From assembly GCA_945876755.1 (NCBI GenBank), contig CAMCPM010000001.1:124001-188000 (forward strand): a stretch of 64,000 nucleotides of DNA, in the 5' to 3' direction. The stretch's first letter is position 1; the number at the start of each line of letters is the position of its first letter. Below are positions 2,864 to 56,731 of this stretch, one piece after another. The translations under genes were made by a program, and so were the position numbers. This DNA is from an uncultured Clostridia bacterium. Lineage in GTDB: Bacteria > Bacillota > Clostridia > Oscillospirales > Ruminococcaceae. Under the pieces are notes generated by a model. The model did no database searches and was not told the origin of the DNA. It saw nothing but the letters and a program-made list of their open reading frames with translations.

Positions 2864-4003
2864 TCAAAGCCTGCACTTGAAATCCTCATATCCAAACTGT
2901 TTAATTATTTTATTTTCTCCGTTCAAAGTATGCAGGACTATTGCAGGCAGCGGCATACCATTGAATGTATTGTTCTTAACCATAGAATATATCGCCATGT
3001 CGCAAAAAACAAGTCTGTCCCCCGTTTTCAGCGGCTCATCAAAGGAATAGTCCCCGATGATATCTCCGGCAAGGCAGGTAGGTCCTCCTAAACGGTAGGT
3101 ATACGCTTTTTCATCGGGCATTCCCGAACCGATAATATTGGGTCTGTACGGCATTTCAAGAACGTCTGGCATATGGCACGCAGCAGACGTATCTAAAATA
3201 GCAATATCCATACCGTTTTTCAGCGTATCAAGAACTTCGGCAACAAGATAACCGGCATTAAGAGCAACTGCCTCTCCCGGTTCGATATATACCTGCACAC
3301 CGTATTTTTTCTGAACCCGTTCTACAATTTTCACAAGCTTTTCTACATCGTAATTATCACGGGTAATATGGTGACCACCGCCGAAATTAAGCCATTTAAG
3401 TCCGTACAGATACTTGCCGAACTTTTCCTCGACTGCATTAATCGTTCTTTCAAGAACATCTGCTCCCTGCTCGCACATGGTATGAAAATGCAGTCCGCTT
3501 ATGCCGTCGGGAAGCGTTTCCGGAAACTGGTCTATAACTGTTCCAAGACGGGAATTTTTAAAACATGGATTATATATATCCGTTTCAATTTCCGAGTATT
3601 CGGGATTAATGCGTATTCCTACTTCAATTTGTCGTCCGCAGGATTTTACCGCAGGGTAAAACTTTTCATACTGTGCGAAGCTGTTAAACACGATATGGTC
3701 AGCATACTGCACAATTTCCGGAAAATCCTTTTCGCTGTAAGCAGGACAGTAAACATGGGTCTCACCGTCAGGCATTTCCTCCTTGCCGAGCCTTGCCTCA
3801 TACAAGCCGCTTGCCGTAGTACCCGAAAGATACTTTCCGATAAGCGGATATGTGCTGTACATTGAAAAAGCTTTCTGTGCAAGAAGAATTTTGCAGCCTG
3901 TTCTCTCCTGCACATATTTAAGTATTTCAAGATTTTTTACAAGCAGCCTTTCGTCCGTCACATAGCATGGCGAAGGCAGTGCAGAAACGTCAAAATCAAG
4001 CAT
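2864..4003 (-). CDS. nspC: Carboxynorspermidine decarboxylase
   Basis: PLP-dependent fold-III (alanine racemase-like) decarboxylase that converts carboxynorspermidine or carboxyspermidine to the polyamine, a cytoplasmic step. The 379-aa product has the PLP lysine in LLAQKAFSM, then HFHTMCE, the glycine-rich phosphate loop WLNFGGGHHI, EPGEAV, and the C-terminal DTSAACHMPDVLEMPYRP active-site segment from the partner subunit. The start at 4003 overlaps the last 8 nt of the upstream DUF896 gene, indicating translational coupling. No carboxynorspermidine dehydrogenase lies adjacent, so the first pathway step must be encoded elsewhere. Confidence 0.9.
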   Translation of the reverse strand: MLDFDVSALPSPCYVTDERLLVKNLEILKYVQERTGCKILLAQKAFSMYSTYPLIGKYLSGTTASGLYEARLGKEEMPDGETHVYCPAYSEKDFPEIVQYADHIVFNSFAQYEKFYPAVKSCGRQIEVGIRINPEYSEIETDIYNPCFKNSRLGTVIDQFPETLPDGISGLHFHTMCEQGADVLERTINAVEEKFGKYLYGLKWLNFGGGHHITRDNYDVEKLVKIVERVQKKYGVQVYIEPGEAVALNAGYLVAEVLDTLKNGMDIAILDTSAACHMPDVLEMPYRPNIIGSGMPDEKAYTYRLGGPTCLAGDIIGDYSFDEPLKTGDRLVFCDMAIYSMVKNNTFNGMPLPAIVLHTLNGENKIIKQFGYEDFKCRL

Positions 4004-46271: not shown

Positions 46272-46778
46272 TTATATATCAGTTCTTAAAAAATATATGT
46301 TCTGCAACCATTCAGGTTCTTTTTTCATTTCATCTTCTATCTTTTCAAGAGTTCTCTTTCCAACCCTCTTATCAAAAAGAGCAAACATTTTTACAATAGA
46401 ATTCTGAGAATAAATGCTTTTTTGTATATCTGCATTCCGATATTCCTCTAAAGCATCACAAAATTCCTCATCTGTATACTCTGTTCGTGCACTCATTGGA
46501 TACTTGTCTATGAGTTCCCAATATCCTTCCCAATACTCGACTGTATTCATTTTTTGAGGCTTTTCTACATATCCCATTTTAATGAAATAAGAATTAACTG
46601 TTTCATAAGAAAATCGTTTGATAGATTTATTATCGATAAACACTTCAAATACCCGACATCCATCCATTCCAACATATGTTGTACAATTATATCTGACTCT
46701 TCCTTGAAGTGAATCTGCTATCATTTCACTTTCAAGATATTTTCGCATTCCACTCCAAGAACCTAATATTTTACTCAT
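46272..46778 (-). CDS. SF0329-family-like hypothetical protein
   Basis: 168 aa, soluble. The start ILGSWSGMRKYLESEMIADSLQGRVRYNCTTY resembles the SF0329 family (W-S-x-x-K-x-x-E, D-S-L-x-G-R-V), whose members often sit as immunity-like orphans. A charged helical C-terminus follows. No toxin gene lies next to it. GGTAGG precedes the ATG. It is AT-rich relative to radA. Confidence 0.6.
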   Translation of the reverse strand: MSKILGSWSGMRKYLESEMIADSLQGRVRYNCTTYVGMDGCRVFEVFIDNKSIKRFSYETVNSYFIKMGYVEKPQKMNTVEYWEGYWELIDKYPMSARTEYTDEEFCDALEEYRNADIQKSIYSQNSIVKMFALFDKRVGKRTLEKIEDEMKKEPEWLQNIYFLRTDI

Positions 46779-46824: not shown

Positions 46825-48222
46825 TTATTGATTTTCCTTGTTTTTCTGTATAACCGAAAAAGCCTGACGAAGAGATGACACGCCGTAAATGTGCATATTG
46901 TATTTGCTTGGGTCGATATTCCGCAAAGACTGCTTGGAAATGATACATTCCGTAAATCCGAGACGTTCTGCTTCTGTAATTCGCTGTGAAATATTTGAAG
47001 TGTTCCTAATCTCGCCACCGAGTCCGATCTCACCAAATGCAATAAGCTTTTCACTGATTGGTACGTCATAATATCCGCTGTAAATAGCAAGTGCTACCGG
47101 TAAATCTCCTGCCGGCTCGTCAAGTCTGAAGCCGCCTACTATATTAAGATAAACGTCAAGCGTTCCGAAAAACATTCCCAAACGCTTCTCAAGAACCGCA
47201 ATTATAATAGCAAGCCTGTTATAATCAAATCCTGTTGCCGTTCTCTTAGGCGTAGAAAAGCTGCTTTTTGTCACAAGTGCCTGAACCTCTGCCAAAATAG
47301 GTCTGCTGCCCTCCATTATGCAGGCAACACAAGTTCCTGAAATACCTGTGGGACGTCCAGAAAGAAGCATAAGCGACGGATTTTCAACCTCTTCAAGTCC
47401 GTTATCGCACATTTCAAACACGCCTATCTCATTTGTTGAACCGAATCGATTCTTTACCGCACGTAGTATTCGGTAACTCAAATGCCGCTCACCCTCAAAG
47501 TAAAGAACTGTATCAACTATATGCTCCATTACCTTAGGACCGGCTATTGCACCATCCTTGTTAACGTGTCCTACTATAAAAATCGGTATCTCCTCTGATT
47601 TTGCGGTACGCATAAAAAGGTTTGTACATTCACGGACCTGAGTGATGCTTCCCGAAGCGGAATTAAGTTCGCTGAGTGACATTGTCTGAATTGAGTCGAT
47701 AATTGCAATATCAGGCTTATGTACCGAAATCGTATCCGCAGCGGCTCTCGCGTCGTTTGTTGACAAAAGCGACAGATTTTCCGTATCAACTCCAAGGCGC
47801 TGTGCGCGAAGCTTGATCTGGCGTATACTTTCCTCACCCGAAATGTAGAGTATTGTATAGTTTTCTCCGAGATATTTGCATATCTGCAAAAGCAGAGTGG
47901 ATTTACCTATACCAGGTTCACCGCCGATAAGCACCAGCGAACCCTTTACCAGTCCGCCGCCGAGAACACGGTTAAGTTCGGCTATACCGGTAGAATAACG
48001 CACGTCGTCATCAACGTCAACTCCCGAAAGAGTTACAATTTTTGAAGAAAGATTGACCGTTTTTATTGATGAGACTGCCTTTCCCGTACTTTTTGCAGCT
48101 GTTTCGACAACTTCTTCCTCAAAGGTATTCCACTCGCCGCAGGACGGGCATTTTCCATTCCATTTTGAACTTTCATATCCGCACTGATTACATATGTAGA
48201 CCGATTTTAACTTTCCTGCCAT
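46825..48222 (-). CDS. radA: DNA repair protein RadA (Sms)
   Basis: 465 aa. N-terminal zinc finger CNQCGYESSKWNGKCPSC, RecA-like Walker A GEPGIGKSTL, the RadA KNRFG motif (AVKNRFGSTNEIG) and a C-terminal Lon-like domain ending with VRQAFSVI-type SLRQAFSVIQ. It promotes branch migration in recombinational repair. GGAGGC precedes the ATG. In the uninterrupted chromosome it would lie just 11 nt downstream of the cwlD-type amidase gene, so the inserted element separates it from the original upstream promoter. Confidence 0.96.
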   Translation of the reverse strand: MAGKLKSVYICNQCGYESSKWNGKCPSCGEWNTFEEEVVETAAKSTGKAVSSIKTVNLSSKIVTLSGVDVDDDVRYSTGIAELNRVLGGGLVKGSLVLIGGEPGIGKSTLLLQICKYLGENYTILYISGEESIRQIKLRAQRLGVDTENLSLLSTNDARAAADTISVHKPDIAIIDSIQTMSLSELNSASGSITQVRECTNLFMRTAKSEEIPIFIVGHVNKDGAIAGPKVMEHIVDTVLYFEGERHLSYRILRAVKNRFGSTNEIGVFEMCDNGLEEVENPSLMLLSGRPTGISGTCVACIMEGSRPILAEVQALVTKSSFSTPKRTATGFDYNRLAIIIAVLEKRLGMFFGTLDVYLNIVGGFRLDEPAGDLPVALAIYSGYYDVPISEKLIAFGEIGLGGEIRNTSNISQRITEAERLGFTECIISKQSLRNIDPSKYNMHIYGVSSLRQAFSVIQKNKENQ

Positions 48223-48233
48223 TTAAGCCTCCA

Positions 48234-48794
48234 TCACATTTTTACAAATTCATTTATACCGGAAAAAACAGTAAACGCAACCTTTTGCTGATACGCTTTA
48301 TCCGTAAGCTTTGCCGCTTCATCGGGATTTGAAAGGAATCCGCATTCTACCATTACAGCAGGATTGTTACAGTAATAGCAAAGATACAGCTCGCTTCCGC
48401 AAAGCTTGGTCTCACGCTGATTTTCCGGCTGCAAATTTCCTACGAATTTCTGCTGCATTATTGAAGCAAGCTGTGCGCTTGCAGGATTTTTGTCACTGTA
48501 AAACATCTGCGCACCACTGAATTTGGGGTCGCTGAAGGTATTCTGATGTATTGACACGCAAACAGCATTACTATATTTATTGAACAGTTCCAGTCTATTT
48601 TCCATATCTGAGACCTTCTGATTGCGAATACCTGTCACGCCCTTATCATGGATAGAAACATCCTTATCGCGTGTAGCATCGACATTATATCCGAAAAAGC
48701 GGCTCAGATCCCGTACAGAAAGAAGAATATTCAGATTGATACCCTTTTCGGTCTTTCCGTCAACAGTTGAACAGCCTCCGTCCATACCGCCGTG
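48234..48794 (-). pseudogene. cwlD: CwlD-type N-acetylmuramoyl-L-alanine amidase, 3' part (interrupted gene)
   Basis: Frame from HGGMDGGCSTVDG to the C-terminus EFVKM. Zinc ligands and catalytic residues: His in HGG, His in SIHQN, Glu in VMVECGFLSNPDEA; also FSGAQMFYS, as in CwlD. The frame hits a stop soon upstream, inside element DNA. The missing first 51 codons are at 56523-56665, across a 7.7 kb element. Joining at the TG core (48793-48794 / 56521-56522) gives IVLDAGHGGMDGG and a 237-residue protein, the same length as Bacillus CwlD. It is followed by radA. Confidence 0.92.
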
Positions 48795-48828
48795 TGGTGC
48801 GTATGTCTTAACTGTAGTTTTTGCTTAT
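48787..48828 (-). other. Attachment site, low-coordinate end of the serine-integrase element
   Basis: The host side reads CCGCCG (48787-48792), the core TG 48793-48794, and the element side TGGTGCGTATGTC from 48795. On the minus strand the element arm is ACATACGC-ACCA-CA. It joins to the other end to regenerate attB and a symmetric attP. Confidence 0.85.
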
Positions 48829-48830
48829 TA

Positions 48831-50408
48831 CTATATTTTCCAATCAATGGTAATCTTGCGGTCTTTACCTGCCTCGTATTCACCTATGTAAACAGTATCA
48901 ATAAAGTCATCAACAACTTCTCGTGTCAGCTTGTCAACATAAAGGTACTTGTCGATTATAGCCTTTTTGTCGGCTTCCTCTGACTTAATACTTTCAATGT
49001 GTGCAATCTGCCCCTGTATGTTTTCACACTTGGCGTTCAATTCTGCTATGGTGTCGGTAAACTTCTTGCTAATAATCTTGTACTGCTCCGCAGAAATTGT
49101 GCCGTCAAGGTAATCTTCATACATTTTTGTAACCTTGTTTTCTTTATCTGCAATCTGCTCTTTATATAAATTTATTGTACCTGTCAAGGTATCAATTTTT
49201 TCTTGGTGCTTGTCAAGTAACGTTAATTTGTTTGTATAACAAAACTGTCTTATGTGGGTGTTAATCTGCTGTACCAAAAATGCTTCAAGCTGCATACCGC
49301 TTATTGATTTTGTGTTGGCGCAGTTCATAGCACCTATCTTGTATGTACCACATTGCAAGCCGTAGTATTGTATGGTTCTTTTCTTGTTATAGTACACGTT
49401 GCGCTTCATAGGCTTGCCACATACCGCACACTTAACTTTACCTGCAAGCGGTGACAATGTTTGTGTAATCGTATCTACACGCACACGCCCTTGTAAACGC
49501 TCCTGCACTTTCTGCCACGTCAACGGGTCAATAATTGCCTCGTGTGTGTCGGGTACTCTTATCCACTCGCTCTCATTAACTCGTTTCTTTTTGTGGTTCT
49601 TGTAACTGACATTATGCGACTTGCCCTGTACAAGTGTGCCTGTGTATATTTCGTTGCGTATCATAGTAAAGATAGTCGAATGTGTCCACAATCCTTTACT
49701 GTGACTGTCCTGCACATTAGCATTATAAAACTTGCTGCCGCACATCTGCTTGTATAGTGTCGGACTTGGTATGCCTCGGCTGTTTAATTCAATTACAATC
49801 GCCCTGTAACCGTTGCCCTGTGCATATAAGTCAAATATCAACTTGACATTCTCTGCTGCTACAGGGTCAATAATTAAATGGTTCTTGTTCTTGGGGTCAA
49901 TAGCATATCCGTATGGTGCAAAACTACCCGTAAACTGCCCTTGCTCTCGCTTGTGCTGTAATACACTTTTTATTTTCTTGCTTGTGTCCTCGCAGTACCA
50001 CTCACTTGTCAAGGCTAATATCTGGCTCTGCTTCTTGGTGTTCTCATTATCTGTGTCAATGTGGTCGATAACGCTTTTAAACCTCACGCCCCACTCTAAA
50101 AACTTGTCGTGTATATAATGATTGACAAGCTCATTATCTCTTGCAAAACGGTCTTGGTGCTTACATAACACAAGGTTTACACGTCCGCTTTCACAATCGG
50201 CAATCATTCGGTTAAACTCTGGTCTATTCCTGTCTGTACCGCTGTAATCCTCGTCATTGTAAATATCGTATATCTCCCAGTTACGCTCACGGCAGAAATC
50301 TGTTAGCATTGACTTCTGGTTTTGTATACTCTCGCTTTCATCTCCCTTGTATTTCTTGTTTCTGTCCTCGTCTGACAGTCTGACATAAATTGCTACACTA
50401 ATACTCAT
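48831..50408 (-). CDS. Large serine recombinase (integrase)
   Basis: 525 aa from the ATG at 50408 (AAAAGGAG upstream). The N-terminal resolvase domain is YVRLSDEDR with the catalytic Ser in ESESIQNQKS, then DRFARD. A recombinase domain follows (~165-290: PYGYAIDP, GIPSPTLYK). A zinc-ribbon carries CAVCGKPM and later Cys (CGTYKIGAMNC), and a coiled-coil tail (~390-480) follows. The 36-bp gap to the attachment site is typical of serine integrases. It should catalyse insertion at and, with a directionality factor, excision from cwlD. Confidence 0.95.
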   Translation of the reverse strand: MSISVAIYVRLSDEDRNKKYKGDESESIQNQKSMLTDFCRERNWEIYDIYNDEDYSGTDRNRPEFNRMIADCESGRVNLVLCKHQDRFARDNELVNHYIHDKFLEWGVRFKSVIDHIDTDNENTKKQSQILALTSEWYCEDTSKKIKSVLQHKREQGQFTGSFAPYGYAIDPKNKNHLIIDPVAAENVKLIFDLYAQGNGYRAIVIELNSRGIPSPTLYKQMCGSKFYNANVQDSHSKGLWTHSTIFTMIRNEIYTGTLVQGKSHNVSYKNHKKKRVNESEWIRVPDTHEAIIDPLTWQKVQERLQGRVRVDTITQTLSPLAGKVKCAVCGKPMKRNVYYNKKRTIQYYGLQCGTYKIGAMNCANTKSISGMQLEAFLVQQINTHIRQFCYTNKLTLLDKHQEKIDTLTGTINLYKEQIADKENKVTKMYEDYLDGTISAEQYKIISKKFTDTIAELNAKCENIQGQIAHIESIKSEEADKKAIIDKYLYVDKLTREVVDDFIDTVYIGEYEAGKDRKITIDWKI

Positions 50409-50441
50409 ATTATTGTTACTCCTTTTCGGTAATAAACAAAA

Positions 50442-50498
50442 TATGGTATAGTTATCTAAATACAAGATAATTATACCATACTCGTTTTTGTTATTCAA
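50442..50498 (-). promoter_or_regulatory. Integrase promoter with 15-bp inverted repeat
   Basis: On the minus strand TTGAAT (complement of 50493-50498), 17 nt, TATAAT (complement of 50470-50475). An inverted repeat with arms 50442-50456 and 50466-50480 (14 of 15 matches, 9-nt spacer) covers the -10 and start site, a good operator position. Confidence 0.8.
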
Positions 50499-50514
50499 GT
50501 GTTTTGTTTATTCT

Positions 50515-50643
50515 TTATTTATTGGCGGTTACCTGCTCCAACTTCCTGTTAATCATTTTTTCTACTGCCCGTGTAACTGCCGTTGCTCTATCCTCGGCGG
50601 TCTTGGTCTTGTAATTGTTTTCTGCAATTAATTTCATTTTCAT
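50515..50643 (-). CDS. Small basic helical protein, 42 aa
   Basis: Starts MKMKLIAENNYKTKTAED at 50643 with AAAGGAGAT at good spacing and ends ...QVTANK. Basic and amphipathic, predicted one or two helices. Located directly upstream of the integrase promoter, with a palindrome in its own leader (50706-50728). Size, charge and place would suit a regulator or recombination directionality factor, but no family is recognised. Confidence 0.55.
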   Translation of the reverse strand: MKMKLIAENNYKTKTAEDRATAVTRAVEKMINRKLEQVTANK

Positions 50644-50705
50644 AGTGTGTATCTCCTTTATGGTCTGTTGTTAATGTTTATGTGTTTGTTGGTGGATATA
50701 TACAC

Positions 50706-50728
50706 AACTATACTAATTTAGTATAGTT
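50706..50728. promoter_or_regulatory. Perfect 11-bp palindrome, candidate operator
   Basis: AACTATACTAA-t-TTAGTATAGTT. It overlaps a possible minus-strand -10 (TATACT) for the 42-aa gene. It shares the TATAGTT word with the integrase operator. Confidence 0.65.
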
Positions 50729-50924
50729 TAATGTAAAAAAACACAAAATGCTTCAACAAGATATTGTTTAATAAGTTACGGCACTCAGCAATACAACTCT
50801 GTAGTTATACTCCTATCTAATAATATATTATATTATCTAATAACCCATATTCAGTTATTTTGATTTTTTTAAATTGCCCTCAAATAACGTAGCTATGGGC
50901 AAAACTGACATTTTGCAAAAATGC

Positions 50925-50952
50925 AAAAAGGGTACAAAACTGTACCCTTTTT
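50925..50952. terminator. Terminator of the 50973 gene
   Basis: AAAAAGGGTACA (50925-50936) pairs with TGTACCCTTTTT (50941-50952), T-tract on both strands. Confidence 0.9.
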
Positions 50953-50972
50953 ACACTCTTTTATGCTCGGTG

Positions 50973-51860
50973 TCAGGTATCAAAAAATCTTGCGCCGCTG
51001 TCCTTAATCATCTGCACATAGGTACAAATGTCTTTGTGCGAAAAGTATTCTATATACTTACGCTGTTTGTACCTCTTGGCTTGTTGGTCGGGGTCTTTAT
51101 AACCTAAAACCTTATAAAAGTTTGACATCTGCCTGCTTGTAAAAATACTGCTCTGGTACTTGTATAGAAATTCATTCAAGGCAAATCCTCGCTGTCGGCT
51201 CTCTATCTGGTATCGGTTGTACAGGGCGGTGTTTAACTTCTCTTGCAAGCGTTCAAAATTATCTTTAGTTACTGCCTTGTCAAGTCGCTTGCACCATTTC
51301 ATAAACTCGGTATGCTCCTTGTCATTCTCGGCGGTATCATCGTACAGCTTCTTGCTCCGCAGTTCCAATCTGTTCTTAACTTCGCCGTCTGGTTCTTCAA
51401 TACCTTTGTTGTAGTTCTCGGCTTCAATGTACTGGTTTTGTATGCGTATGCAAAGCGGTTCAAGGGTCATAGGGTTTATTGTATCGTAGTTGTTTGTTAT
51501 GTTGTATGCCTCGGCAATCAACAGTATTAATAACTTGTTCAGCTTTAGCAGCTCTTCAAAATTATCGTCAAAACTGTCAATCCTAAAATCAATCCTTGTC
51601 TTGGTTGGGTTTGTCATATTCAAGAAGTTTATCATATAATCTCTTATACCGTAATAGTCGGTGCTGTTGTAAATCTGCAAGCCGTTGTTGCCCTTGTCGG
51701 GGTTCAGCTTATAATAACAAGCACCTGTTGCCGTGTTCTTTCGTGTGCAGGTTGGTGCAAAGTCTGCCTCAGTCTCTGGTGCTATCTCTGTATCGCTCCG
51801 CACTTCTATTGTGTCAATGCCCGTATATAAATTAGCCTTCGCTAACTTATTCTTATTCAT
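50973..51860 (-). CDS. Unassigned element protein, possible replication initiator
   Basis: 295 aa, no recognised family. The start overlaps the HNH gene by 8 nt. There is a strand-like TKTRIDFRIDSF segment reminiscent of Rep_trans/rolling-circle initiator cores, followed by helix-rich regions (LLKLNKLLILLIAEAYNI) and a basic C-terminus with QAKRYKQRKYIEYF. The Rep suggestion is weak and based on local pattern only. No HUH (His-x-His) motif was seen. Confidence 0.6.
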   Translation of the reverse strand: MNKNKLAKANLYTGIDTIEVRSDTEIAPETEADFAPTCTRKNTATGACYYKLNPDKGNNGLQIYNSTDYYGIRDYMINFLNMTNPTKTRIDFRIDSFDDNFEELLKLNKLLILLIAEAYNITNNYDTINPMTLEPLCIRIQNQYIEAENYNKGIEEPDGEVKNRLELRSKKLYDDTAENDKEHTEFMKWCKRLDKAVTKDNFERLQEKLNTALYNRYQIESRQRGFALNEFLYKYQSSIFTSRQMSNFYKVLGYKDPDQQAKRYKQRKYIEYFSHKDICTYVQMIKDSGARFFDT

Positions 51861-52260
51861 TTACATCGCCCCCTTTCTGCTGTCGGCTCTGTTTCGCCGC
51901 TTCTCGCAGTTGGCGGTGTATCTGCTTGTGTTCCTCGGCAGTTACCCACATTAAATTATCTGCCCTGTTATTCTGGTTGTTACAGTCGATATGGTGTACA
52001 ATCGTCTTGCCCTGTGGGTTGTCAATAAAAATCTTTGCCACAAGTCTGTGTATCTTAACGTGTTCAAACTTGCCGTCATTTCTCTTTAGCTTCACTTCAA
52101 GATAATTTCTTGTCACAACATTGTATTTAAGTATCTTCTTGTGCTTCAAGCTGTATACCCTGCCGTAATTGCTCACTAAATAATACTGGTAACCTACAGC
52201 TACCGCCCATACTTCGCCGCTTATATAGTCGGCATAATCTGTTATAAATGTTTTTGTCAT
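51853..52260 (-). CDS. HNH endonuclease with NUMOD4 domain
   Basis: 135 aa. N-terminal NUMOD4-like segment (GEVWAVAVGYQYYLVSNYGRVYSL), then an HNH_3 nuclease (HRLVAKIFIDNP, IVHHIDCNNQNNRADNLMWVT). It nicks or cuts DNA; homing-type enzymes of this kind are common in phages and elements. The ATG at 52260 has no close Shine-Dalgarno. A 51-codon out-of-frame ORF starting at 52282 with AAAGGAGCG overlaps it, so its translation may depend on coupling. Confidence 0.85.
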   Translation of the reverse strand: MTKTFITDYADYISGEVWAVAVGYQYYLVSNYGRVYSLKHKKILKYNVVTRNYLEVKLKRNDGKFEHVKIHRLVAKIFIDNPQGKTIVHHIDCNNQNNRADNLMWVTAEEHKQIHRQLREAAKQSRQQKGGDVNE

Positions 52261-52528
52261 TTTCAGTTATTCGTGCAATCATTTTTTAATCGCTCCTTTT
52301 ATTTTTTTGGTATCGCTTCCGACCTGCTCATTTTGCTGTAATATCGTTCTGTCAATACCGTCACGCTCGCCCCCGTTTCTGTCTGTATTTGACGTTGTGG
52401 TTTATGCTTCTCATTGCACTAATCCTCACTTTCTGCCCGTTTGGGCGTTAATAATATAGTTGCTGTTCCATTTGGAACAAAAAAATAATACCGAATGTGC
52501 GGTTCTGCGCACTCGGTATGTGTTGCGG
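52261..52528 (-). other. Region with tiny ORFs and no clear gene
   Basis: Three tiny minus-strand ORFs occur here: MRSINHNVKYRQKRGRA, an overlapping GTG ORF of 21 codons, and a 51-codon ORF from 52282 that runs into the HNH gene. Only the last has a strong ribosome site. None can be assigned. Confidence 0.4.
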
Positions 52529-52726
52529 TTAAAAACCTTTACTTTGTAAAAAGTTGTCAAGTGCCGTCAATGTATCGGGGTGTAAATCCCATTCATTTCT
52601 TGCAAATCTGCCCAGTACATAACGGTGTTCAACATCTAAACCTATAAGGCAGCCTATCTTTGACAGACTTACAGGGTGCATATCGGTGTATGCTTTCAAC
52701 CTTGCTCTTACATTCGTATTGCTCAT
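52529..52726 (-). CDS. Small putative DNA-binding protein, 65 aa
   Basis: MSNTNVRARLKAYTDMHPVSLSKIGCLIGL and then helical ALDNFLQSKGF. The VSLSKIGCLIGL-turn pattern resembles a short HTH. Strong AAAGGAGG before the ATG. Possibly an element regulator; function unproven. Confidence 0.6.
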   Translation of the reverse strand: MSNTNVRARLKAYTDMHPVSLSKIGCLIGLDVEHRYVLGRFARNEWDLHPDTLTALDNFLQSKGF

Positions 52727-53413
52727 TTGTTCAGCCTCCTTTCATTCTGGCGGTATCTATGTAAACAGTTGCCTGTTACACTTGGGACAAAAAAAATTTA
52801 TATCGGCAGGCTCGTGCCGTTTCCCTTAAAGCATAGTTTTTTTCAAAACGCTATGTCTTAAAACCTGCTCAAACGGCGTAGTTATGGGGTTTAAGCAACA
52901 ATTTGTGCTGTCCACGCTAACGGAATTACTCCGCAGGCTCGTGCCGTTGCTCATTCCCTTAAAGCCTCGGTTTTTCATATAGTAATTAAAATTCAAAATC
53001 CTGCAAACAACGTAGCTGTGGCATTTGTAGGGGTTTTCTAAATTAAATTGGTAATTCTAAAAACACTTACCGCCTACTATCTGCATCGCCGTGTCGCAAA
53101 TTCTCTCCATATGGGTCTTGGTATTCATATAGTAATTGCTTGTTAAATGTCTATAAACCACGCTATTATGCGGTTTGTGGGTGCTTTCTGAAATAAATAA
53201 AAACCATTAATTGTTACCGCCGTTTCTCTCCATATACGGCAATTAGGGCAAGGTTTAATATTTCCCTTACCTATGCGGTTTGTAGCACTTTCAAAAAAAT
53301 GTTTTCGTAGTAAAAACCGCCGTTTTTTGTAAATTTTGCCGCAGACAAGCGCCGCTTTATGCTCTCCGCAGGTGTGTACCGTCATATATCTATATCAGAA
53401 TAAGAAAAAATAC
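52727..53413. repeat. Repeat-rich noncoding region of the element
   Basis: No convincing gene. Recurrent words: GGCTCGTGCCG (52808 and 52937 regions, again near 54940); CAAA-N2-CGTAG-Y-T-R-TGG (50881, 52870, 53004); CATATAGTAATT (~52976 and ~53128); TTCTCTCCATAT (~53101, ~53224, ~54351). Several fold as hairpins, e.g. CGGCA-ggctcg-TGCCG and AGCATAG/CTATG. May be regulatory RNAs, an origin or a transfer region. Confidence 0.6.
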
Positions 53414-53478
53414 AAAAATAAAAACAGCCCCTTATAAACAGCGTATTTAAGCCATTTATAAAGGACTGCTTTATAAAA
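53414..53478 (-). terminator. Terminator of the 53484 gene
   Basis: On the minus strand CAGTCCTTTATAAA pairs with TTTATAAGGGGCTG, then TTTTTATTTTT. Confidence 0.75.
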
Positions 53479-53483
53479 ACAAT

Positions 53484-54260
53484 TCAAACATTTTGTTTTC
53501 TTATTCTTGACATTCTCTCTCTTGTTTTCTCTTTGTTGACAACCTCGCTACAATTTTTACAATATCTGGTTTTGCCATTCCTGCTTTTTCTAACTACCGC
53601 TCCGCACCTTTCGCAATGTACATAATTCTCGCCGCAGTACAATAAGTATTCGTTACCTAAATCCTTTAACTGGGTAATCGTCAATACAACATCGGCTTTA
53701 TCATCAATGAAATTCACCTGTATATTTGGTTTACCTACATTCCTACTTAGGTTAATTAAATCGTTTCGGTAAAGCTCATTTATCATTAAACCTTGGTCTT
53801 GTGTGGTCATTTGCACATTTGCCAGTGAAAAAACTTTCCTACAATCAGTATTCGCCCAGTTATTGTTACTTTCGGAAACGGCATTGTAATATTTGGCTAT
53901 TACTAATAATGTAAATAATACTTTCTGCTTTCGCTTGCCTTTAACTAATTGTATTGTATCAATTTCCGACTTGGTAATATGTATGCCGTCAACTCGTTTC
54001 AATCCGTATTTTCGGGAATACTTGACTTGACGAAAAACACTATCAATCCACCTGCTCTCTTTGTAATTATCCTGTAAACATCGTTGCAGGAAATCAAGTA
54101 ATAATCTTTTTATTGTATCATCGTCTTTGCCAATCTCTCTGTAATACCTCGCTAATATATTCAAGGTTCTTGACGGTTTTGTACCAATATCTTCAATACT
54201 TAGGTTCTCTTTATTTACAAGGTTCTCGGCGTACTTATATTCATTCATAACTAAATTCAT
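53484..54260 (-). CDS. Unassigned element protein with C-terminal zinc ribbon
   Basis: 258 aa from the ATG at 54260 (alternatives within 24 nt). The N-terminal ~190 residues are helical and basic (NILARYYREIGKDD, KSEIDTIQLVKGKRKQ). The C-terminus carries CERCGAV and CKNC (zinc ribbon) followed by a basic helix KTRERMSRIRKQNV that could bind nucleic acid. Often such proteins sit in element replication or regulation modules; no specific role is claimed. A terminator follows. Confidence 0.65.
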   Translation of the reverse strand: MNLVMNEYKYAENLVNKENLSIEDIGTKPSRTLNILARYYREIGKDDDTIKRLLLDFLQRCLQDNYKESRWIDSVFRQVKYSRKYGLKRVDGIHITKSEIDTIQLVKGKRKQKVLFTLLVIAKYYNAVSESNNNWANTDCRKVFSLANVQMTTQDQGLMINELYRNDLINLSRNVGKPNIQVNFIDDKADVVLTITQLKDLGNEYLLYCGENYVHCERCGAVVRKSRNGKTRYCKNCSEVVNKEKTRERMSRIRKQNV

Positions 54261-54281
54261 TATCGCACCTGCACAACTCAT

Positions 54282-55052
54282 AATATTATCAGTTGCAATC
54301 AGTATAGCATATTATCAACAATAAATCAATACATTTTCACGGTGCAGGTTCTCTCCATATTGCCCCCTAAATTTTCAAAACACAATTTAAAATATCTCAC
54401 TCATTCTCTTGTTTTCTTGTGTTTGCTCTTATTTTCACCATAATTGTTGATTAAAAACAAAAGTCCAAAAGTGGAATATCTCGGTGCTAACTTCTGCCCG
54501 TTGGTAACTGGCGGTTGCCTCGGCGGTCTTAACCGTTGCTGTCGGTTTATGCTTTGGCGGTTTCGGTCTGCAAAAAATCAAATGTGAATAGACTGCAACT
54601 ACTATACCTATATGGTGAATAAAAGCAGCATTTCAAAATGTATATTACCCCCCACATACGCATATAACAAAATCTACACGGCATTACAGGCGTTTTGGCG
54701 TGTTCATAGTGTTATTCCCTACCACATACAAAAGTGTCTTAAATTACATTTATATTTCGTTATACGCTGTTTGTGCTAAAATTTACAATAAACTTATTAT
54801 AAATATTGACACATACCCCTTGCATAGTATAATTACCCTATAAATTAGTTATGGTAATATTTTCTTTATTCTTGTGGTAAATTTCAGCTAAAACAGGCAC
54901 TTGCAAATATACTGTTTTTACTGGTGCATATCTCCATAGGCTCGTGCCGCCACTCTCTCCACAGGTATCGGTCACGGCGATACCTTTACATACAAAAAGA
55001 GCAGGTCTGTTTAAAACCTGCTCCGTATTGGGTGTTACTCGGTAACAATGTG
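54282..55052. other. Noncoding region of the element, possible origin or transfer region
   Basis: 770 bp without a supported gene. It contains further copies of the element repeats (GGCTCGTGCCG near 54940, TTCTCTCCATAT near 54351) and AT-rich stretches. Near the end is a terminator (54999-55023). No oriT nick motif could be named. Confidence 0.45.
54999..55023 (-). terminator. Terminator of the 55053 gene
   Basis: GAGCAGGT (54999-55006) pairs with ACCTGCTC (55016-55023); on the minus strand TTTTTG follows. Confidence 0.8.
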
Positions 55053-55364
55053 TTATTCAGTTACAACGGTCTGTAGTTCATCTGTTGCTATACCAAACAA
55101 CAACATTGCTGTCAAAAAGCCTTGCTTAAATCCTACATCTGCACAAGCCATACACGCTTCATCAATATCACCACTATTGAAATAAAACCCGTTTTCATAA
55201 GCGTTTATTAAGTCGTAATAGTATTCATAGGCTGTGTCATATTCATCATTAAGCACATCTTTAATATTTTCACCAAACACATTTTCAAGTTCATCAATGT
55301 TCTCTCTAATAAATTTCAGCAATTCTGTAGCGTTTTTTCTAAATCCCAAAATCTCGTTAGCCAT
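55053..55364 (-). CDS. Hypothetical acidic protein, 103 aa
   Basis: Not recognised. From the ATG at 55364 (ATGGAGGT upstream). Acidic and helical: KNATELLKFIRENIDELENVF, then YEYYYDLINAYENGF, then a small-residue/hydrophobic C-terminal helix. It follows the resolvase gene in the same transcript with a short gap. Confidence 0.65.
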   Translation of the reverse strand: MANEILGFRKNATELLKFIRENIDELENVFGENIKDVLNDEYDTAYEYYYDLINAYENGFYFNSGDIDEACMACADVGFKQGFLTAMLLFGIATDELQTVVTE

Positions 55365-55386
55365 TGTGTGTACCTCCATTAAATCA

Positions 55387-56028
55387 TCATTTGTTTTCGT
55401 ACTGCTTCACCAACTTGTAAAAGGTTGTCCTTTTCAAGTCAAGCAGTTCCATTGCTTTGTTAGCTGTTATGCTGTCTGCTTTCCATTGCTTATATACCTG
55501 CTCCCAGTTGTCGGGGTATACAGCATTAGGTCTGCCTGTAGGTCTGCCTGTCTTTGCTGACACTCTCTTGCCGTCAACTACCTGCATAACATCAATGCCT
55601 TGTCGCTGTCGCTTGCGTGTGTTCTCTCGCTCCTTTTCGGCGGTGTATGACAGTATCTGCAATACAAGGTCTGCTATAAACCGCTTGTCAAGGTTGCCGT
55701 CTGTTGCCGTTGTGTCAAGCAAGGGTATTTCCAGTACCTTTATATCAGCCTTTAGTGTTCTGGTGATATACTCCCATTGCTCCCGTATCTCTACATAGTT
55801 GCGCCCCAGTCGGTCAAGTGACGTTATCAGCAACAAATCTCCCTCGTGTAACAATGGTGCAGTATCAGCAGTACCAACTAAACTGTTATAGCCTCGGCGG
55901 TCAAAGTTCTTACCGCTTGCCTTGTCGGTAATAATATACCGTTCATCTGCAATATGCTGCCGCAGTTGTTCAAGCTGTCGGTCAAGGTTCTGGTCTGTTG
56001 TACTTACCCTTGCATATCCATAGGTCAT
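55387..56028 (-). CDS. Small serine resolvase/invertase
   Basis: 213 aa. YARVSTTDQNLDRQ at the N-terminus holds the catalytic Ser (RVST). SLDRLGRNY, then the E-helix around RFIADLVLQILSYTAEKERENTRKRQRQG, and a C-terminal HTH (KWKADSITANKAMELLDLKRTTFYKL). It resolves dimers or inverts short segments; in a small element it usually maintains monomers. GGGGGCGA precedes the ATG. The promoter and two direct repeats lie just upstream. Confidence 0.93.
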   Translation of the reverse strand: MTYGYARVSTTDQNLDRQLEQLRQHIADERYIITDKASGKNFDRRGYNSLVGTADTAPLLHEGDLLLITSLDRLGRNYVEIREQWEYITRTLKADIKVLEIPLLDTTATDGNLDKRFIADLVLQILSYTAEKERENTRKRQRQGIDVMQVVDGKRVSAKTGRPTGRPNAVYPDNWEQVYKQWKADSITANKAMELLDLKRTTFYKLVKQYENK

Positions 56029-56058
56029 TTTATCGCCCCCTTTCGTTGCTATGGTTAT

Positions 56059-56135
56059 AGTATAGCATAAGTGTTTGTAAAAGTCAATACCTATTTACGA
56101 ATATTCACAAAATATTTTTATATCTTTACGAATAT
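56059..56135 (-). promoter_or_regulatory. Resolvase promoter with direct repeats spaced 31 bp
   Basis: On the minus strand TTGACT (complement of 56082-56087), 17 nt, TATACT (complement of 56059-56064). Upstream, TTTACGAATAT is repeated at 56094-56104 and 56125-56135, 31 bp apart (three helical turns). They may be resolvase subsites or a regulator site. Confidence 0.75.
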
Positions 56136-56250
56136 AATTATATGCCCGTTTCAAGGTGCTTTTGTGTGTTTGTAAAGGTGTACTTTTATAAACAAATTAA
56201 CAGTTCGGTGTTATACCAATATTTTCAAGGGATTTATCGCAGTCAAGTAA

Positions 56251-56296
56251 TAAAAAAACACCTGCTCATACCATTTGGGTAAAAAGAGCAGGTGTT
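56251..56296 (-). terminator. Terminator insulating the element from cwlD transcription
   Basis: AACACCTGCTC pairs with GAGCAGGTGTT on the minus strand, with TTTTTTTATTA after it. It stops leftward transcription from the 5' cwlD fragment before it enters the element genes. Confidence 0.8.
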
Positions 56297-56499
56297 ATAA
56301 AAACATAGGAAATACAAGGGTTTTCGGGCATTTATGATTTATGCTGACTTTCGGTAAACTGTTCGGCGTTTGGTTCGTAATTGTCAAAAACTATACTTAA
56401 CACATACGCAGATACCTGCATCTAACGTATGGCTATAATTTTTATATATGACGTAGGCAAGCGGTTTGTAGCGGTGTATTTAGACAACTATACTCACTA

Positions 56500-56530
56500 C
56501 ATACGCTTCTTGCCCTGCATCAAGAACTAT
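56500..56530 (-). other. Attachment site, high-coordinate end of the serine-integrase element
   Basis: The element side reads ACTACATACGCTTCT (to 56520), the core TG 56521-56522, and the host side CCCTGCAT. Opposing arms GCGTATGT/ACATACGC flank the core in the reconstructed attP. Confidence 0.85.
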
Positions 56531-56665
56531 CATAACGTTATCCTGCGGTACTGAATTTGAAACCGTGACCGCATTATCAATTTTGGTTGCTGCATAGACT
56601 ATCACTCCTACGCAGGCAAAAAATGTAAGTACCACAAAAGCCGCATTCCAATTATACTTTTTCAT
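56523..56665 (-). pseudogene. cwlD: CwlD-type amidase, 5' part (interrupted gene)
   Basis: Encodes MKKYNWNAAFVVLTFFACVG, a signal-anchor helix, and then VMIVLDAG, which is where the zinc-amidase HGG motif should begin. The frame instead runs into element DNA and stops at 56480 after ten foreign codons. It joins at the TG core to the 3' part at 48234-48794. CwlD amidases act on muramoyl peptides of spore cortex in spore-formers; whether this organism sporulates cannot be told here. Confidence 0.92.
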
Positions 56666-56731
56666 AAGATACCTCCAAACAGCTTGTATTATTGTATCCT
56701 ATGAAAAATTACGGGCTTGTATGACAGTTAA

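Follow-up and report, generated by a model that had tools for sequence, protein, structure and literature searches.

A recurrent serine-integrase insertion in the spore gene cwlD as a candidate skin-type element

Is a spore gene that has been cut in two by mobile DNA a broken gene, or one that is put together again when it is needed? The question is raised by a locus in a 64,000-nucleotide stretch of DNA (the window; positions 124,001 to 188,000 of contig CAMCPM010000001.1, assembly GCA_945876755.1) from an uncultured Ruminococcus-like member of the Oscillospiraceae. The window lies on contig 1 of this source genome (G000; 2.34 Mb in 43 contigs) and contains an element with a large serine integrase lodged within cwlD, the gene by which spore formers make germinable spores and whose product, CwlD, is a cortex enzyme. 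The insertion in cwlD is real, recurrent and site-specific, and we consider it probable that it represents a skin-type element whose excision in the mother cell would rebuild the gene.

The initial annotation described a gene split at a TG core, and this was borne out. On the minus strand, the N-terminal part of cwlD (residues 1–51, which include the membrane anchor and run to LDAG; identity to the corresponding part of congener G011, 69%) occupies 56513..56665, and the C-terminal part (Amidase_3), which begins with the His codon and includes the stop, occupies 48234..48794; the N-part boundary given earlier, 56523, was a 10-nt slip, and the other numbers hold. The core dinucleotide, CA on the minus strand and TG on the plus strand, is found at 56511..56512 on the N side of the element and at 48793..48794 on its C side. 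Core to core, the element (48795..56512, no strand assigned) measures 7,718 bp and splits cwlD at the codon of a zinc-ligand His. When the flanks are joined, a 237-codon frame with LDAGHGGMDGG results, and the same LDAGHGG(M/I)DGG reading is present in 11 whole congener genes. Joining the two ends of the element yields an imperfect dyad in which 20 of 40 inner positions agree, a value matched in a fraction of 0.00045 of 20,000 permutations. Because 11 congeners carry the whole gene and the joined ends form this dyad, the split is not a product of chance. The open frame of the N-part continues inside the element as far as 56480. In its present state the C-part offers no start codon (ATG, GTG or TTG) from the preceding stop up to an ATG past the His codon, so a product translated from the C-part alone should have neither membrane anchor nor first zinc ligand.

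By its best matches the interrupted gene is probably cwlD: in NCBIfam the joined protein matches spore_cwlD best, at 186 bits (188.6 for an intact congener), scores below the NCBIfam cut-off, and in the PDB the intact congener is closest in sequence to chain B of 7rag, a germination-specific amidase (E 2.4e-33). The genus of the host was represented by a sample of 21 genomes, which was searched with the cwlD C-part. Spo0A_C was present in all 21 genomes and SpoIVA in 19, and the sigma-E family model matched 18 at E ≤1e-60, with three above the cut-off. A genuine C-part was found in 16 genomes, of which 11 carry the whole gene, four are cut and one has a whole gene across a contig break. The four cut genomes (G000, G001, G009 and G018) are interrupted at the identical motif. 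In the remaining case (G017), the two halves lie on two contigs (C43 and C20; loci L086 and L067) whose ends share 24 nt at the site and together give a whole reading, a break that could reflect either a mixed population or chance. In the other five genomes (G003, G004, G006, G013 and G020), the C-part search hit nothing more than another amidase or a short fragment, and cwlD may have been lost or have strongly diverged.

Does the insertion recur elsewhere? Counting the genus, 18 genomes are cut at the cwlD motif, 17 of them with the C-part in hand (G000, G001, G009, G018, G098, G125, G212, G217, G219, G267, G280, G311, G321, G338, G396, SUG1190 and the Ruminococcus flavefaciens metagenome-assembled genome (MAG) G414) and one, G263, recognized by its N-part. 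In a survey of the family, 262 genomes had a cwlD match, and at least 13 of them are cut, among the matches listed. The core can be placed to the exact 2 bp only if little sequence is shared; the shared stretch measures 9–12 bp in G009, G098 and G338. All 17 C-parts are full length (186–202 amino acids) and keep SxHQN and ECGF, and no decayed half was found among them. Cut and whole genes both have a low ratio of non-synonymous to synonymous divergence (dN/dS) in the C-part (for instance, G018 versus G016, dN 0.002 and dS 0.44). This was not used as proof, because several pairs have saturated dS and the same values would be expected after a recent insertion. The integrases adjoining the cut cwlD of G009 and G018 are 56–57% identical to that of G000. 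In SUG1190, the integrase is 98% identical to that of G000 and the cwlD C-part only 67%, and the element has therefore crossed hosts recently. In a 60-row integrase tree, the 16 cwlD rows need one change, versus 14.2 when shuffled, and form one side of a branch with support 64/20, 13 of them being grouped at 100/100. A single old, vertically inherited insertion was rejected, as the integrases and host genes are discordant and only one of ten genomes is cut in the genus of G338. Searches for relatives found none above 60% identity in phages by tblastn and two short matches only in plasmids, and an alignment of integrases gave no relative in viral_contigs.

If the gene is to be rebuilt, what would make the element leave at the right time? 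The large serine integrase (525 amino acids; 48831..50408, minus strand) is intact, as first annotated, with Resolvase, Recombinase and zinc-ribbon domains all present, and alignment with relatives suggests that it starts at the ATG at 50408 rather than at a TTG at 50498. A putative sigma-A-like promoter, recognized by consensus match only (TTGAAT, 17 nt, TATAAT; 50470..50498, minus strand), is overlapped by a 16-bp dyad at 50442–50480. Upstream of the integrase lies an open reading frame (ORF) of 42 amino acids (50515..50643, minus strand), a candidate recombination directionality factor whose position is conserved in 15 of 15 loci: in every cwlD-type locus that passed the filter, a 39–52-codon ORF with a ribosome site ends just upstream of the integrase. 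Twelve of these 15 small ORFs can be aligned, and most have an AVTxKVEKxIN-like stretch. Sigma-E-like promoters are predicted for two genes, GTATATAT, 13 nt, CATAAACA for the 42-residue ORF (50675..50703, minus strand) and TCATACAA, 13 nt, CATAGGAT for cwlD (56696..56724, minus strand). The dyad at 50442–50480 and another at about 50710–50735 share TATAGTT-like words with the element ends, and autoregulation through these dyads, one over the integrase promoter and one before the small ORF, is possible.

Sigma-E-like motifs were scored against the consensus ATA + CATA from Clostridioides difficile (PMC3789822), with a spacing of 13–14 and a score of at least 16. A motif was found upstream of the small ORF at 11 of 15 cwlD-type loci (11 of 14 without L099, from a genome with a whole cwlD) and at 11 of 15 loci of a sister set introduced below (9 of 12 for strict cotJC sites, without L115 and L131, which cut another gene, and the unassigned L123). 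Upstream of cwlD itself, the motif was present in 14 of 15 cases, versus 0 of 10 integrase genes and a background of 4.8% of 352 genes. Shuffle tests with a wider spacing gave a combined p of 4e-5 for the cwlD set. With automated choice of the ORF, the motif was found at 10 of 15 cwlD, 10 of 18 cotJC and 6 of 36 other integrases, so that the re-test compares 20 of 33 with 6 of 36 (Fisher p 1.8e-4); the filter had removed 2 of 21 cotJC and 6 of 46 other loci, and a further one and four, respectively, had no small ORF. A positive control with spoIVA failed, as no start was found and the gene closely follows another ORF.

Related integrases were found in a second spore gene. Among the 30 best integrases of the family (L103–L132), 8 lie beside cwlD, 13 cut cotJC, 2 cut an unnamed gene and, within 1.5 kb, no gene could be assigned to 7, four of which (G263, G280, G311 and G396) are cwlD by other evidence. 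A survey of the class added 21 loci, namely one cwlD, six cotJC and 14 unassigned. The cotJC fragments match Mn_catalase, and CotJB is encoded upstream of one of them. In the 60-row tree, the 21 cotJC rows fall inside one clade of 25 (support 100/99). A single site in cotJC, a manganese-catalase coat gene, is cut in L100, L116–L119, L121, L122, L124–L130 and L037 (integrase on the 3′ side), and the small ORFs at this site also have a similar sigma-E-like promoter. The unnamed gene, cut by the integrase pair of L115 and L131, encodes ...VTVSF..YIANVASSEVYPTW; it has no Pfam or NCBIfam match, and may resemble SleC. At L220, L229, L231, L232 and L233, other integrases of the class adjoin gene pieces resembling, by eye, S8 proteases, D-Ala-D-Ala carboxypeptidases and an M23 peptidase.

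The remaining genes of the G000 element, all on the minus strand, encode a 295-residue protein of no Pfam or PHROGs family (50973..51860), which is kept in SUG1190 (91%) and G217 (49%), a NUMOD4/HNH endonuclease (51853..52260), a 265-residue protein of phrog_30716, of unknown function (53484..54281), and a small serine resolvase/invertase (55387..56028). A PHROGs scan of seven ORFs found no phage structural gene, and no relaxase or conjugation gene was found among the ORFs scanned in Pfam, so the element is classed neither as a prophage nor as an integrative and conjugative or mobilizable element. The cwlD site is occupied by several kinds of insert, including small plasmid-like elements, tiny elements of 3.7–3.9 kb and one prophage. 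The insert of G217 (~5.8 kb) has the gene order of the G000 element. The tiny elements consist of a sodium/proton exchanger, small ORF and integrase in G098 (~3.7 kb), and of ThiF and PP-loop proteins, small ORF and integrase in G338 (~3.9 kb); this housekeeping-like cargo lies at 3630–4829 of L133 (G098) and 14619–16301 of L136 (G338). The insert of G414 (~18 kb; L209, about 576.4–594.3 kb) carries sugar-nucleotide genes, and its integrase is on the N-part side, as in skin. The insert of G018 is the prophage, with terminase, portal and tape-measure proteins, and would measure ~100 kb if contigs C1 and C4 form one insert. G321 and G263 were considered as conjugative and rejected, as their coupling-protein or TraG-like Pfam hints are weak. 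Outside the element, radA (46825..48222, minus strand; TIGR00416 match above the cut-off) starts 11 nt from the cwlD stop (48222 and 48234), as noted at the outset; the idea that excision reconnects cwlD with radA finds support in this layout only and, as written, goes beyond it. An SF0329-family protein is encoded downstream of radA, at 46272–46778.

These features suggest the following sequence of events. The attachment site of the element would be the conserved catalytic motif in cwlD, and its integrase, always available from a sigma-A-like promoter, would insert it there. The inserted element cuts the cwlD frame, which would be without cost during growth, as CwlD is an enzyme of the cortex. 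During sporulation, sigma-E in the mother cell would activate cwlD and the 42-residue gene together, and the 42-residue protein would act as directionality factor. The integrase would then excise the element in the dying mother cell, restoring cwlD in time for a germinable cortex, and the spore would inherit the unexcised element. The initial annotation had also proposed a reversible switch, which is probably wrong, as excision would, by analogy with known cases, be irreversible and take place in a dying mother cell.

How closely does this resemble what is known? In C. difficile skin, the integrase CD1231 is under a sigma-A promoter and the directionality factor CD1234 is under sigma-E and SpoIIID (PMC5025042), and cwlD of C. 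difficile is itself a sigma-E gene (PMC3789822). The likeness to the sigK skin element drawn in the initial annotation is favoured by a recurrent spore-gene site, by a candidate factor gene preceded by a sigma-E-like promoter and by the spore genes found across the genus; judged from the sequence, the two would share a large serine integrase, a sigma-A promoter, a separate small factor, sigma-E and a mother-cell spore gene. They differ in that the target here is cwlD rather than sigK, the 42-residue factor is a candidate only and the host is a Ruminococcus-like member of the Oscillospiraceae. The gin element in gerE of Bacillus cereus ATCC10987, rebuilt by GirC with the small factor GirX, is likewise not a phage, carries several serine recombinases and lies in a spore gene, but its recombinase is expressed in sporulation, whereas the G000 integrase looks constitutive, and gene and host differ (PMC5595907). 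SP-beta, in spsM of Bacillus subtilis, has a serine recombinase that is expressed constitutively and a factor that depends on sporulation sigma factors (PMC5595907); it is a prophage, as is the G018 insertion, whereas the G000 element has no phage structural gene among the scanned ORFs. The yin element in yabG of Clostridium botulinum also interrupts a mother-cell spore gene and has a putative small factor, but is described from one strain (PMC10747680), whereas the cwlD site is cut in at least 18 genomes. Many diverse large serine integrases are known to share one attB in a conserved gene (PMC10083194), and the accessible part of that paper names no spore gene or amidase as a target and draws no tie to spore control. 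A literature search, mostly excluding subscription papers, found no paper on an element in cwlD or cotJC.

Several observations weigh against mother-cell excision. Five of the 21 genus genomes, all with Spo0A, have no match to the cwlD C-part, and insertions are sporadic, as in the one cut genome of ten in the genus of G338. Both the joined protein and the intact congener fall short of the spore_cwlD cut-off of 221.6 bits, and the best sigma-E match in G000 (343.6 bits) is just below its cut-off of 348.6. The sigma-E-like site of G000 is weak when taken alone (empirical p 0.020; p 0.066 by shuffles), the motif spacing was narrowed to 13–14 after a first look, and the p values are too sharp since related sequences are not independent. 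The attP pattern had no exact match in viral_contigs, and no assembly showed both states of one gene; G263 was rejected as such a case, as its cwlD copies on C100 (whole) and C68 (cut) have different sequences. The contrast between 98% and 67% identity in SUG1190 also means that the G000 insertion may be recent, in which case the intact halves prove little.

Because the insertions are sporadic, plain disruption is the main rival explanation: an ordinary integrative element would knock out cwlD in hosts that seldom rely on spores, with excision being accidental or linked to transfer. Serine integrases do commonly target conserved genes (PMC10083194), the elements have recently moved between hosts, and five genus genomes have no C-part match, all of which speaks for disruption. 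We nevertheless regard this explanation as unlikely, if worth serious attention, given that the cwlD and cotJC clades both strike spore genes, that the small ORF has a sigma-E-like promoter more frequently than at other integrases and that none of the 17 C-parts has decayed. A true reversible switch, with random or stress-induced excision in growing cells giving a mixed population of cwlD-on and cwlD-off cells, would account for the overlapping contig ends and intact reading of G017, and both forms of yin occur in one culture of C. botulinum (PMC10747680). The G017 break, however, is a single case and possibly an accident of assembly, and the small-ORF motif is sigma-E-like, not sigma-A-like, so that we hold this to be very improbable. 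Least credible of all is a fixed, dead element with an inactive integrase or factor and cwlD permanently lost, which would agree with the excised form not having been found as an attP pattern in viral_contigs but not with intact integrase domains and small ORF, nor with the recent movement of the family seen in the 98% identical integrase at the same site in another host.

If the element is indeed excised in the mother cell, it would add cwlD and cotJC to the genes rebuilt by programmed excision, so far described in a few instances, from Bacillus, C. difficile and C. botulinum (PMC5595907, PMC10747680), and the device would recur among Oscillospiraceae of gut and rumen, on several kinds of mobile DNA. 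The arguments seem to us evenly balanced for a broader idea, that one ancient group of serine integrases in the Oscillospiraceae and related Clostridia has specialized in mother-cell spore genes, with a cwlD clade, a sister cotJC clade and perhaps others, each with a small sigma-E-driven excision factor, a trick that phages, plasmid-like elements and tiny cassettes would have in common; in that case, spore genes of gut spore formers would commonly undergo programmed rebuilding. Mother-cell excision would explain how an element can reside in a spore gene without cost, would mean that MAG annotations wrongly score cwlD as broken, and would give a simple way to test how germination is controlled in uncultured spore formers.

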